Assembly (NCBI GenBank): GCA_027011045.1
Contig: JALVAT010000004.1
Location: 1-40,878 of the forward strand
Reading direction: 5' to 3'
DNA: 40,878 bases
Source: Microcaldota archaeon
Lineage (GTDB): Archaea; Iainarchaeota; Iainarchaeia; JAADDC01
Part shown: positions 35,413-40,878 of the stretch, piece by piece
How positions within the stretch are numbered: the stretch's first letter is position 1
How the letters are laid out: each line of letters begins with the position of its first letter
Position numbers and translations under genes: made by a program
The notes under the pieces: generated by a model
Databases searched by the model: none
What the model was told of the DNA's origin: nothing
What the model saw: the letters and a program-made list of their open reading frames with translations, nothing else

Positions 35413-35594
35413 GTTAACGTCTCCACCACTTTTCCGAGGATTTTTGCCTTACCACCGGTGGGGATCGCGATGGTCTCGCCGCAGTTGGGGCACTTCACCA
35501 CGGTGGCGGCCTTGTTAAAGACGATAACCTCTGCCCCGCAGTTGGGGCACTTGACCCGCAGGAACTTGCTCCTGGGCATGGGGATCTTACGCAT
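35409..35594 (-). CDS. rps27e: Ribosomal protein S27e
   Basis: [52 protein letters not shown]. Confidence 0.94.
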
Positions 35595-36168
35595 CCGATA
35601 TCACCTCTGCAAAGCCTCTGAGCTCCAGGATCTTGGCAACGTCCGTTGGAAGCTCAACCACATCGCCGGGCTGGTACGGACCGTACTTCTTTAGATCCGT
35701 ACCCACAAACGCAGGAATGTTCCTAAGAATTCTAACCCGCACAACATTTAAATCATGCTCTGGTTTCTCCTCCTCAGCCTCGACCTCCGGCTCCGAAGCC
35801 GCCAGACCAATAAGTTCCTCCACGCGCCTGCGGTACTGCTCGAGGACCGAAATAATATCCCGGTACAGATCCTTTTCCCAGCCCACGAGATTTTCAGGTT
35901 CCGGTAGGTTAAGGAACATGGCGGAAACAGCTGCGTTGACCACTTTCCTCTGCCGCAGAGCCACGAGATCTGAGACGAGCCTTTGAAGGTTTGCAAACTC
36001 TATGAGCTTTTGAAGATCCTGTTTCTTCCAAGCTTCCCGAACCGCGCGGCTCTCCTCCTGAAGATACTTCCGCAGAAGGTCGTAGAAATCCGGCTCCACA
36101 CGGGCAAGTGCTTGAGACGCCTTCTCGAGCCTGTAAACGGTTCTCAATCGCGAGTAGCTAAGCTCCAA
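35587..36168 (-). CDS. GINS complex subunit (GINS51-type)
   Basis: Helical A domain followed by B domain [46 protein letters not shown]. Confidence 0.88.
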
Positions 36169-37391
36169 CGGGCTACCCCCTTGCTAATGAGGAATACGCT
36201 CACATGTAATGGGAGTTCGATATTTTTATCCACGTAGGGTCCGTAGGTCTGACCTGCGAACTCGAACTCCGGCGCCATGTCCACGTGAAGGTGCAGATAG
36301 GGCCGCTCGGGCAGCACCACAGCATCGCGGTACGGGTCAAAGGACTTCAGGTTGGATACGGGCATCGCCGCAAGCCCAGTACTGCCGTGAAGGGACCCAG
36401 GAACACGGATCAGGCGGTGAATATCTGCAGACGTCCCCGCGTCGATCTCCTTTCCCATGAAGGGGGACAGAGCCCGCACGAGAGCTGTTATGCTGGCGAA
36501 TACATCCTTTTCCCGGGAGAGGAATGGCCAAACCCCCCGTAGGATACCATCCAGGATCGTTTGGCGTTCCCGCATGATCCTCCTGGCCATCCGCGGATCC
36601 ACGCCAAGCATCACAAGATCCGAGACATCCTTTGACGACCGAATAGCCTTAATAACGGAGCGGGCGATGCGACCGGGCCACCCAGGATCGGAGGGCTTCG
36701 GACCGCGCATGGGCACCGAAGTAACGTCAAAAAAGTACCTGGCGTCCAAGGACTGCCCCGTAATGTACTCGGTCAGCTCCACGCGTGTCTCCTTGTCCAG
36801 CTGGCGCAGCGCCTCCGAGCGCACGTGTATGTGGTACCCCCTGTTACCAGAAAAGTTAACGGATATCTCCCGGCTGGAAATGCCAAAATCCGACATAAGA
36901 AAGTCCTTTATGAGGGTATCAACCTCCTGCTTCAAGCGCTCCTCGCGTTCAGGATCGGGGAACATGATAACCTTCGCGGGATCCTTACACCGGGGACAGA
37001 TACCTGGACGCACGCCCTTCAGATCCGAAACGAACCCCTTGGCGCCGCAGTGATTGCAGATCCAGATGTCCTTCGGGGAGAAGAGGCCGAGCTCGTCGGC
37101 ATCGAACTCGAAGATGAGATCTGCACCCTTCAGACCCTTTGCCTCCATGGGTGTAGCCTCTGGGCGCTCAAAGTAGCCGACGGAGTAGGAAATGTACAAT
37201 GGGGCTTCCTCCCGGAGATACCGCTGGAACTCTCGCTCCGTGGCGAAGCTCATGTGTCTTCTGACGATCTTGCGGCCGTAATCACCCACTCCAAACTCCC
37301 TTTCATCAATGTTGGGCGGCGCTGGTACGCTGTGAGATCTGTAATACCTGCGAAAGGCGTCCTTGAGAACCCTGGCAAGCAGCTCGCTCAC
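36144..37391 (-). CDS. priS: DNA primase small (catalytic) subunit
   Basis: DLIFEFDADEL, zinc motif CNHCG...CPRC, FSGNRGYHIHV, IHRLIRVPGSLHGSTGL. Confidence 0.94.
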   Translation of the reverse strand: MSELLARVLKDAFRRYYRSHSVPAPPNIDEREFGVGDYGRKIVRRHMSFATEREFQRYLREEAPLYISYSVGYFERPEATPMEAKGLKGADLIFEFDADELGLFSPKDIWICNHCGAKGFVSDLKGVRPGICPRCKDPAKVIMFPDPEREERLKQEVDTLIKDFLMSDFGISSREISVNFSGNRGYHIHVRSEALRQLDKETRVELTEYITGQSLDARYFFDVTSVPMRGPKPSDPGWPGRIARSVIKAIRSSKDVSDLVMLGVDPRMARRIMRERQTILDGILRGVWPFLSREKDVFASITALVRALSPFMGKEIDAGTSADIHRLIRVPGSLHGSTGLAAMPVSNLKSFDPYRDAVVLPERPYLHLHVDMAPEFEFAGQTYGPYVDKNIELPLHVSVFLISKGVARWSLATRD

Positions 37392-38272
37392 TGGAACACC
37401 CCCATCTCCTGGAGCATCCTGAACACGTCAGGGCTAACGGCGCGAACCTTCTGGGGGCTCCACGGGTGCAGCCCCTTCCGCTTTACGTTCTCGGCGTCGG
37501 AACGCAGCCAAGACTCGAGGATCTTCGCACCCTGGCGCTCAGCCCACTCCTTCGCAATGGAAACAGCGGTATCAACGTCCAGCCCCTTCACGGTGATGAG
37601 ATATGGCATTATCCAGTAGAGGACGATGCGCTTTCTGCCGTCGGGGATTCCGCTGAGCTTTAGTATGGATTCGATGAATCCCCAGCGGCCGGACTGTCCA
37701 GAACCGCGTGGAAGAGATACCTTTGGGACAGCCTGCTTTGCCCACTTTCTTATAGACTCGGGGATTCTGTCGAGGGGGATAGGGAGCCCCTTGACGGCAA
37801 GGCTGTACGCAACGGCGCCTGCGAGCGCTGGGAGAACGTGATTGGGTACAAACACGACGCCCTTGCTCACGGGGAGGTGGTACAGCTTTGTCTCGGGATA
37901 CACGTGGCGAAAGGACATATACGTGGCAAGGGGAACACCGGCACGCGGATCACCAAGGCCTGTAGCCGAGAACAGGTACATACGATACTCGGAGGGGGCC
38001 CGTTCGGCACGTCGGGCATAGAACTTGCCGAAACGATCATAATACAGGGGTGTATCAAGGGCTGAGAGCATCGCGCGGGCAAGAGCGAAGAAGAGGAGCT
38101 CAGACTTCTCAGACAGCAGTGGCATATCATAGTTTCCGGACAGAATACGCTGCAGGCGTGCCGCCACCGCCGAAAGGATCGTCTCATCGGCAGAGGCGGG
38201 ATTTACGCCAAGCTGCTGCGCCCGGACCCGCGCGTCTGGAAGAAACGGGAAGTACCTGTATGCGTCGCGCAC
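37388..38272 (-). CDS. priL: DNA primase large-subunit-like protein lacking all cysteines (PriL/PriX-like)
   Basis: ATGA-type overlap with priS. C-terminal GIPDGRKRIVLYWIMPYLITVKGLDVDTAVSIAKEW resembles PriX/PolpTN2-type domains. No Cys in 294 aa. Confidence 0.78.
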   Translation of the reverse strand: MRDAYRYFPFLPDARVRAQQLGVNPASADETILSAVAARLQRILSGNYDMPLLSEKSELLFFALARAMLSALDTPLYYDRFGKFYARRAERAPSEYRMYLFSATGLGDPRAGVPLATYMSFRHVYPETKLYHLPVSKGVVFVPNHVLPALAGAVAYSLAVKGLPIPLDRIPESIRKWAKQAVPKVSLPRGSGQSGRWGFIESILKLSGIPDGRKRIVLYWIMPYLITVKGLDVDTAVSIAKEWAERQGAKILESWLRSDAENVKRKGLHPWSPQKVRAVSPDVFRMLQEMGVFQ

Positions 38273-39053: not shown

Positions 39054-39799
39054 CCCGCCTCAATGCGAGGTGCGAGGAAGTAGACGAAGTTCGCATCGCC
39101 GATCGCATAGGAGAGCTTCAGAGGGGCATCCGTGGAGAAGGACAAGGAGATTGCAGCGGTCTTATTTGCCTGGGAGACCATGTCCTCCAGGTAGTCCAAG
39201 GGGTAGGACGCCCGGGCTTCCTCCGTTACGAGGAGGTCCAGAAGGGCGTCGTGAACATCCTTCTTCAGCTCAAGGACATACTCACCCTTGCTCCCGGAGG
39301 CCCGCATGGTAAAGCCGTCGTTGGTAGCCTCCATGGTGACGTGGGTGGAGAAGGCGCTGGCATCGGAAAGCGCAGAGGCAAATACGTCAGCGAGAACCTT
39401 CAGGCTGGCGGAGAACGTGATCTTGGGAAGGGGCAGGTCGATACCTCCAAGATCGAGAACGGGGAGCGTGAACCTGCGTCGGGCGCGGCCAACAAGCTCG
39501 ATAATGAAGCGGGAACCGTCCTCGGATACGCTCATTTCGACCGTTTCCGCAGCCTTCGCCCTCTTGAATATGTTCTGAAGATCGGACATGTTCAAACCAA
39601 CGCGAACGGTGCCCTCCACGTCATACTCCTTGAAGGCGTGCTTGGGGAGCGTAAAGTCAACCATTGCGATCTTGGATGGATCCGTAGCACGAAGCCGCAT
39701 GCCCTCATCGTCAAATATGAACTCACCCTCGTCTATGAGGGCAGACAACGCCTTGACGCTCTTCTTCAGAACGTCGGCACCCTCAAAAACCACTTTCAT
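39050..39799 (-). CDS. pcn: DNA polymerase sliding clamp, PCNA paralogue 1
   Basis: MKVVFEGADVLKKSVKALSALIDEGEFIFDDEGMRLRATDPSKIAMVDFTLPKHAFKEYDV; STDAPLKLSYAIGDANFVYFLAPRIE. Confidence 0.94.
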   Translation of the reverse strand: MKVVFEGADVLKKSVKALSALIDEGEFIFDDEGMRLRATDPSKIAMVDFTLPKHAFKEYDVEGTVRVGLNMSDLQNIFKRAKAAETVEMSVSEDGSRFIIELVGRARRRFTLPVLDLGGIDLPLPKITFSASLKVLADVFASALSDASAFSTHVTMEATNDGFTMRASGSKGEYVLELKKDVHDALLDLLVTEEARASYPLDYLEDMVSQANKTAAISLSFSTDAPLKLSYAIGDANFVYFLAPRIEAG

Positions 39800-40157
39800 T
39801 GTAGACCCTCCTCTCCAGCTCTCTAACACGTCTGTAAAGTGCGGGATCAACACCGTCCATGGGTTGGACGATCTCCGCCCTTATGATAATGGCGTCATCC
39901 GATTTATAAGCCCTGCCCAGAAGGCGAACAAGGCTTCCCTCCCGCATCCTTTCGGCGAAGAGGACGTCATCGAGCACCACGCGCGCAGTGCCCGTCCCAT
40001 CATCCACAATACCCTCGAGCCTGCCGGAGTCAAAGGAGACCACGGTGCAGAGAACGGCAACCCGCTCGCCCTCTCCAGTTAGCTCAGAAATGGTGACATC
40101 ACGCGATGGGGCTCGCCTGCGCCGGCGCGCCGCAGAAAAAGAGCTACCCTCATCCAC
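39783..40157 (-). CDS. OB-fold nucleic-acid-binding protein, RPA-associated/RPA32-like
   Basis: ERVAVLCTVVSFDSGRLEGIVDDGTGTARVVLDD...GSLVRLLGRAY OB-fold pattern. GTG at 40157 matches a leaderless start. Confidence 0.68.
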   Translation of the reverse strand: MDEGSSFSAARRRRRAPSRDVTISELTGEGERVAVLCTVVSFDSGRLEGIVDDGTGTARVVLDDVLFAERMREGSLVRLLGRAYKSDDAIIIRAEIVQPMDGVDPALYRRVRELERRVYNESGF

Positions 40158-40181
40158 AGGGTACTTTAGAGTGGAAGCGCA

Positions 40182-40185
40182 TATA
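40182..40185. promoter_or_regulatory. Shared TATA element (within GCATATAAACAA) of a divergent pair
   Basis: TATA centre 40183.5 is the exact midpoint between the GTG at 40157 (-) and the ATG at 40210 (+). Confidence 0.6.
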
Positions 40186-40209
40186 AACAACCTCGCCCAT
40201 CTTAAGAGC

Positions 40210-40878
40210 ATGGAGCGCGCACCGACTGGAATAGATGGTCTGGACGAGCTTATCGAGGGTGGTATTCCAAGGAGGCGTATGGTCCTCGTTTCGGGATCCT
40301 GCGGTACGGGAAAGACTATTTTCTCGGCACAGTACCTCTACAGGGGAGCTGTGGATTACGATGAACCGGGTATATTCGTAACGTTGGATGAGCGGCCAGC
40401 CACGATCCGCGAGGATATGCTGCAGTTCGGGTGGGATCTCAAGGCGCTTGAAGAGAAGGGAATGCTCCGCATTATAGATGGAACGGTAACGAAGGTGGGC
40501 ATTCCCTCCGAGGAGGAGTTTTCCCTGCCAGAAACGGGGTTCAACCTTGACAAGCTCCTCGTAGAAATTATAAAGAGCATAAAGGAGCTCGGGGCAAAGC
40601 GCCTCGTTGTGGACTCGCTTCCAGCACTCGGATTCAAGTATGATACGGAAGCAGACGTACGAAAGGCTATTCTAAAGATGTCGTACGTCCTTTCCAGGAC
40701 AGGGGTTACGTCCATCGTCACAACGGAGATTCCAGAGAACGCAGGGGTCTACTCCAAGTACGGCGTCGAGGAGTTCGTGGCGGATGGCGTAATCGTCCTA
40801 CAGTACGGGGGACTCGGAGCAAACGCCACGAGAACGCTCCACGTAAGAAAGATGCGAGGCACGAAGCACTCCGAGCAC
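40210..40878 (+). CDS. KaiC/RecA-superfamily ATPase, 3'-truncated by the window end
   Basis: Hand translation MERAPTGIDGLDELIEGGIPRRRMVLVSGSCGTGKTIFSAQYLYRG...LVVDSLPAL...; Walker A GSCGTGKT. Not in the ORF track because it is open at the edge. Confidence 0.9.
   Translation, partial: MERAPTGIDGLDELIEGGIPRRRMVLVSGSCGTGKTIFSAQYLYRGAVDYDEPGIFVTLDERPATIREDMLQFGWDLKALEEKGMLRIIDGTVTKVGIPSEEEFSLPETGFNLDKLLVEIIKSIKELGAKRLVVDSLPALGFKYDTEADVRKAILKMSYVLSRTGVTSIVTTEIPENAGVYSKYGVEEFVADGVIVLQYGGLGANATRTLHVRKMRGTKHSEH

Follow-up and report, generated by a model that had tools for sequence, protein, structure and literature searches.

Gene content of the primase locus

The window (the whole 40,878-nucleotide stretch of archaeal DNA analysed here) encompasses a replication cluster on the reverse strand that includes the genes for the catalytic primase subunit PriS, a GINS subunit, two PCNAs and a primase large subunit that we denote PriL-X. 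The features of this cluster are as follows.

35587-36168, minus strand: GINS subunit, on the downstream side of the cluster (PF22090, NF053565)
36144-37391, minus strand: PriS, catalytic primase subunit, partner of PriL-X (NCBIfam PriS, 2.4e-61; motif alignment)
37388-37391, minus strand: GTGA, 4-base overlap of the priL-X stop and the priS start (sequence)
37388-38272, minus strand: PriL-X, primase large subunit, fusion of a PriL N-terminal domain (NTD) and PriX, 294 aa, GTG start (Pfam and NCBIfam PriX; PDB 5ofn_B across both parts; AlphaFold2 model)
37718-38272, minus strand: PriL N-terminal domain, aa 1-185 (canonical-PriL profile, hhalign, NTD tree, Foldseek)
37685-37717, minus strand: linker forming the junction, aa 186-196 (AlphaFold2 pLDDT below 50 at 186-194; alignment)
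37403-37684, minus strand: PriX domain, aa 197-290, predicted to bind the initiating NTP, cysteine-free, without the Fe-S subdomain (PF18689, Foldseek 4wyh, HMM)
37628-37642, minus strand: DGRKR, aa 211-215, the counterpart of PriX D70-R74 and predicted triphosphate-binding motif (alignment, residue table; function per PMC5700102)
38295-39853, minus strand: PCNA gene pair, upstream of priL-X (PF00705)

As the earlier note had reported, the 294-aa open reading frame contains no cysteine and overlaps the start of priS, the overlap being the four bases GTGA, through which the two genes are probably translationally coupled. The partner PriS, encoded in the same operon, has an intact active site: the DxD and SGxxGxHxH motifs, motif III and the zinc cysteines are retained in all ten members of the window's family (motif alignment), in agreement with the earlier proposal of a separate PriS that keeps its zinc motif. 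In several Micrarchaeota, the zinc ribbon of PriS is missing or reduced (priS of L011, L027, L039 and L042), whereas it is kept in the family of the window. The fusion gene lies upstream of priS in 10 of the 10 family genomes, and both the priL-priS order and the locus are unchanged in canonical relatives.

The crenarchaeal look of the paired PCNA genes was dropped from consideration, two PCNA genes being usual in the class. Upstream of the PCNA pair, the window encodes a small OB-fold protein (39783-40211) that matches Ten1_2 (CST complex subunit) just above the cut-off and is likely an RPA-type subunit.

A PriL N-terminal domain fused to PriX

The absence of cysteine from PriL-X is, on its own, weak evidence because the adjacent GINS and both PCNA open reading frames are cysteine-free as well. 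Across the family alignment, nine of the ten PriL-X proteins lack cysteine and one contains a single cysteine; given this near-complete absence throughout the family, together with the positive identification of the C-terminal domain (CTD) as PriX, the Fe-S-less PriL is real. The Pfam PriX profile (PF18689) matches aa 199-289 with E=5.9e-20 (71.8 bits, against a cut-off of 25), the NCBIfam PriX profile (NF033412) gives E=8e-20 (71.1 bits, against a cut-off of 50), the two together assigning residues 198-289 to PriX, and the PriX profile scores above the cut-off in all ten family members. The Pfam/NCBIfam scan of PriL-X yielded no match to the PriL Fe-S domain (PF04104), and the Pfam scan found no AEP domain.

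In a single-sequence search, the best PDB match was 5ofn_B (1.4e-18, residues 126-284), a chain entered in the PDB as a PriL-X fusion, and in a search with the family profile, 5ofn_B (2.5e-28) outscored PriX alone (4.6e-24) because the match extends through the PriL part as well. The AlphaFold2 model, built from ten family sequences, has a mean pLDDT of 90.2 and a single disordered link, at residues 186-194. In a Foldseek search, this model matched PriX (4wyh; TMt 0.85, rmsd 2.0) and the PriL core (1zt2, 2dla), the C-terminal domain adopting the helical fold of PriX. By alignment, the junction lies approximately where the Fe-S domain begins in the relatives.

Two claims of the earlier note, that the protein is a PriL devoid of the [4Fe-4S] domain and that its C-terminus is PriX-like, are thus borne out, and the structural comparison upholds the relationship to both PriL and PriX. 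The likeness to PolpTN2-type plasmid primases that it drew in addition is loose, the literature giving PolpTN2 a predicted 4Fe-4S cluster: in those primases, an AEP domain and a predicted 4Fe-4S PriL-like domain share one chain, and neither was found in the cysteine-free PriL-X.

Distribution in the family and the class

The fusion is present in all ten genomes of the window's Micrarchaeota family, spread over two genera, with approximately 31-48% identity to the protein of the window. These genomes are separately binned, fragmented MAGs from several studies, 68-92% complete; that of the window is 92% complete and consists of 54 contigs. Given that every genome is a MAG, an assembly chimera might be suspected, but the same fusion recurs in all ten of these bins, at this level of sequence divergence. 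Truncation of the gene conflicts with the overlap of the priL-X stop codon with priS, which leaves no room for a lost tail, and the probability of an artefact of either kind is practically nil.

The Fe-S domain profile PF04104 detected no match in any of the 10 family genomes, compared with 41 of the 45 other class genomes searched, although this profile also misses some PriX-bearing Thermoproteota. Conversely, among 77 other genomes of the class, the PriX domain was found in only one, G010. A cysteine-containing PriL elsewhere in the genome would have undermined the earlier note; neither PF04104 nor a profile of 14 canonical PriLs revealed a second PriL in the genome of the window, the sole match of the latter profile being the N-terminal part of PriL-X itself (37721-38254, E=9.6e-10), where it stops just short of the expected start of the Fe-S domain. 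Within the family, the canonical profile matches nothing beyond the N-terminal part of PriL-X, and in the second genus (five genomes), even this part falls below the threshold, so that the domain there is very divergent. Because the family genomes are fragmented and incomplete, they could conceivably still encode an additional Fe-S subunit that has diverged too far to be recognised by these profiles.

Loss of Fe-S cluster assembly in the family, after which the Fe-S primase domain had to go, would fit the small size of these genomes (0.4-1.0 Mb). However, SufB/SufD homologues are encoded in 8 of the 10 family genomes, on which ground this cause of the swap was rejected, and many Micrarchaeota without a SUFBD homologue, including the 99% complete G014, nonetheless keep an Fe-S PriL, so this explanation is scarcely tenable.

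Different affinities of the two domains

In the phylogenetic tree of the N-terminal domain, PriL-X joins 28 canonical PriLs of Micrarchaeota, against Thermoproteota (support 100/98), and in the PriS tree, the family falls inside the class; hhalign, run with the profile of the family against that of canonical PriL, gave 98.9%. The C-terminal domain of PriL-X, together with PriX and the AEP-PriX proteins, separates from every Fe-S domain (100/99) and is sister to the cellular PriX plus the Desulfurococcales-type AEP-PriX fusions of mobile genetic elements (97/97), in a tree of 90 columns that gives no direction of transfer. The family C-terminal domains score 64-83 bits to the PriX HMM vs about -1 to that of the Micrarchaeota Fe-S domain, and the long motifs VKGxxxDE and SWxxS...VKxKGxxPWS are common to them and PriX. 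As judged from these comparisons of sequences, PriL-X has kept the N-terminal domain of the lineage's own PriL, whereas PriX accounts for the C-terminal domain alone. The earlier note had seen in this gene either an intermediate state or a replacement by a mobile-element-type subunit; with this composition, the protein is not foreign as a whole, nor is it simply a PriL that has degenerated.

Alternatively, the lineage's own Fe-S domain could have decayed in place, losing its cysteines and its second subdomain and coming to resemble PriX without any transfer of the latter. PriX and the C-terminal domain of PriL have a common fold (PMC5862659), the C-terminal domain tree is short, and the AU test does not reject a topology in which the family is basal on the PriX side and adjoins the Fe-S domains (p=0.445). 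The disparity of the HMM scores, the shared motifs and the well-supported grouping with Thermoproteota PriX all argue against decay in place, which we consider unlikely but not negligibly so.

PriX domains occur on mobile-element-like primases, where they are fused to PriS-like AEP domains, which could point to displacement of the entire PriL by a mobile-element subunit. The affinity of the N-terminal domain to Micrarchaeota PriL and the location of the gene in a replication cluster that is conserved and includes priS and GINS led us to reject such whole-subunit replacement, and relatives of PriL-X were absent from the viral contigs, plasmids and phages scanned, all of which makes it very unlikely. 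Foldseek against viral structures likewise gave no meaningful match for PriL-X. Among the genome contigs, a single-sequence scan detected no relatives, and an alignment-based scan recovered the family and one Desulfurococcales AEP-PriX.

With the N-terminal domain taken as the lineage's own and the C-terminal domain as PriX, a mobile-element origin of the family's PriX domain is possible. Possible sources are the PriS-like AEP proteins fused to PriX that are encoded on mobile-element-like contigs of Desulfurococcales-type genomes (L071/L073, L088 and L093). More distant PriX-domain proteins of 330-392 aa are present in other Thermoproteota genomes (L089, L091, L094 and L090); their N-terminal part had no Pfam match in the two that were scanned.

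Predicted nucleotide-binding residues and a proposed mechanism of initiation

Sulfolobus PriX holds the initiating nucleotide by its triphosphate through residues D70, R72 and R74, and the R72A substitution abolishes initiation while extension is kept; a chimera of PriL 1-211 and PriX 42-154, without the Fe-S domain, primes at the wild-type level (PMC5700102). In the PriL-X family, the equivalents of D70 and R74 are invariant (10 of 10), as is that of K73, and the R72 equivalent is arginine in eight members and lysine in two. The D140 equivalent is aspartate in 9 of the 10 members and serine in the protein of the window. The equivalent of Y103, which buttresses R72 in PriX, is not kept, being replaced by A, L or I. 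Sulfolobus PriX grips the C-terminal domain of PriL by its N-terminal tail (PMC5700102), a tail that is dispensable in PriL-X because the two parts are covalently joined.

By analogy with the Sulfolobus chimera, the PriL domain of PriL-X would dock PriS and support elongation, and the fused PriX domain would hold the initiating nucleotide, probably staying on the 5' end of the primer and thereby setting the primer length as a caliper. With the two domains in these roles, the primase would be a heterodimer of PriS and PriL-X that is predicted to be metal-free in its large subunit and to start primers without any Fe-S cluster. We estimate at about 90% the probability that this gene is the family's replicative PriL, with the [4Fe-4S] C-terminal domain replaced by a joined PriX, and that the PriS/PriL-X heterodimer initiates without Fe-S. 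Points against this reading are the lysine in place of R72 in two members, the replacement of Y103 and the serine at the D140 position in the protein of the window.

Comparison with known primases

The closest known counterpart of PriL-X is the engineered Sulfolobus 'Chimera' (PDB 5OFN; Holzer et al. 2017, PMC5700102), with the same domain order, the same PriX nucleotide-binding motif, no Fe-S domain and about the same junction. The Chimera, however, was man-made from Sulfolobus parts, whereas PriL-X is natural, belongs to Micrarchaeota, carries its own N-terminal domain and is the sole PriL found. Compared with canonical archaeal and eukaryotic PriL, the N-terminal domain, the gene position and the PriS partner are alike, but the four-cysteine C-terminal [4Fe-4S] domain is missing. 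In Sulfolobales and some Desulfurococcales, PriX is a homologous domain with the D70/R72/R74 motif; there, it forms a separate third subunit of ~155 aa tethered to a PriL with a (degenerate) Fe-S domain, whereas in PriL-X it is fused and the Fe-S domain is gone. Because PriL-X thus lacks one defining feature of PriL, the Fe-S domain, and one of PriX, the separate subunit, neither name alone is proper.

The Thermoproteota AEP-PriX fusions on mobile-element-like contigs (e.g. L073, L088 and L093) also carry PriX in cis with a primase protein, but theirs is joined to a catalytic PriS-like domain and that of PriL-X to the PriL N-terminal domain. The monomeric primase of Nanoarchaeum equitans and the PriS-PriL proteins of DPANN Cluster 2 are similarly compact DPANN enzymes with a helix-bundle initiation domain (PMC11009956; PMC7414124), but combine PriS and PriL in one chain, whereas PriS is separate in the window's family. 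In PriX-bearing Thermoproteota (L099-L106), the Fe-S domain of PriL is degenerate, with the cysteines kept and the H..RF segment lost, and PF04104 misses some of these genomes.

PriX has been reported as specific to Sulfolobales (PMC9258230), and Micrarchaeota as possessing canonical priS and priL (PMC7414124). In our searches, a Desulfurococcales MAG and genomes like it also encoded PriX, and its range now widens from a crenarchaeal speciality to DPANN. The domains and the mechanism are already known; the natural architecture and the lineage are new, a natural PriL-PriX fusion being unreported in full-text literature searches (PriX with DPANN or fusion), whose coverage omits most subscription journals. 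The debate on whether primase needs its Fe-S cluster, structurally or for redox signalling, has reportedly drawn on mutants and one engineered chimera. An entire archaeal family appears to live with the architecture of that chimera, naturally occurring evidence that chromosomal priming can do without the cluster, and PriS/PriL-X, as a compact heterodimer, lends itself to structural studies of initiation.

A possible second case of domain replacement

In G010, which belongs to another family of the class, the protein encoded in the priL position (L011:997-2097) combines N-terminal similarity to PriL with a mobile-element-like PriX C-terminal domain that scores 55 bits to mobile-element PriX vs 0.2 to the Fe-S domain. 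This C-terminal domain may represent an independent second swap; a single origin for it and the domain of the window's family is compatible with the tree data (p=0.266). A broader scenario, which we regard as conceivable but doubtful, is that exchange of the C-terminal domain of PriL for PriX rendered the chromosomal primase of a cellular lineage wholly Fe-S-free, that such swaps occurred more than once, as in G010, and that Sulfolobales PriX may derive from a fused domain rather than from a duplication of crenarchaeal PriL.

The C-terminal domain of the G010 protein retains several cysteines. Because this domain scores to mobile-element PriX, these cysteines are no evidence of a retained canonical domain, and on the two bit scores we rejected a halfway form with a canonical Fe-S domain.
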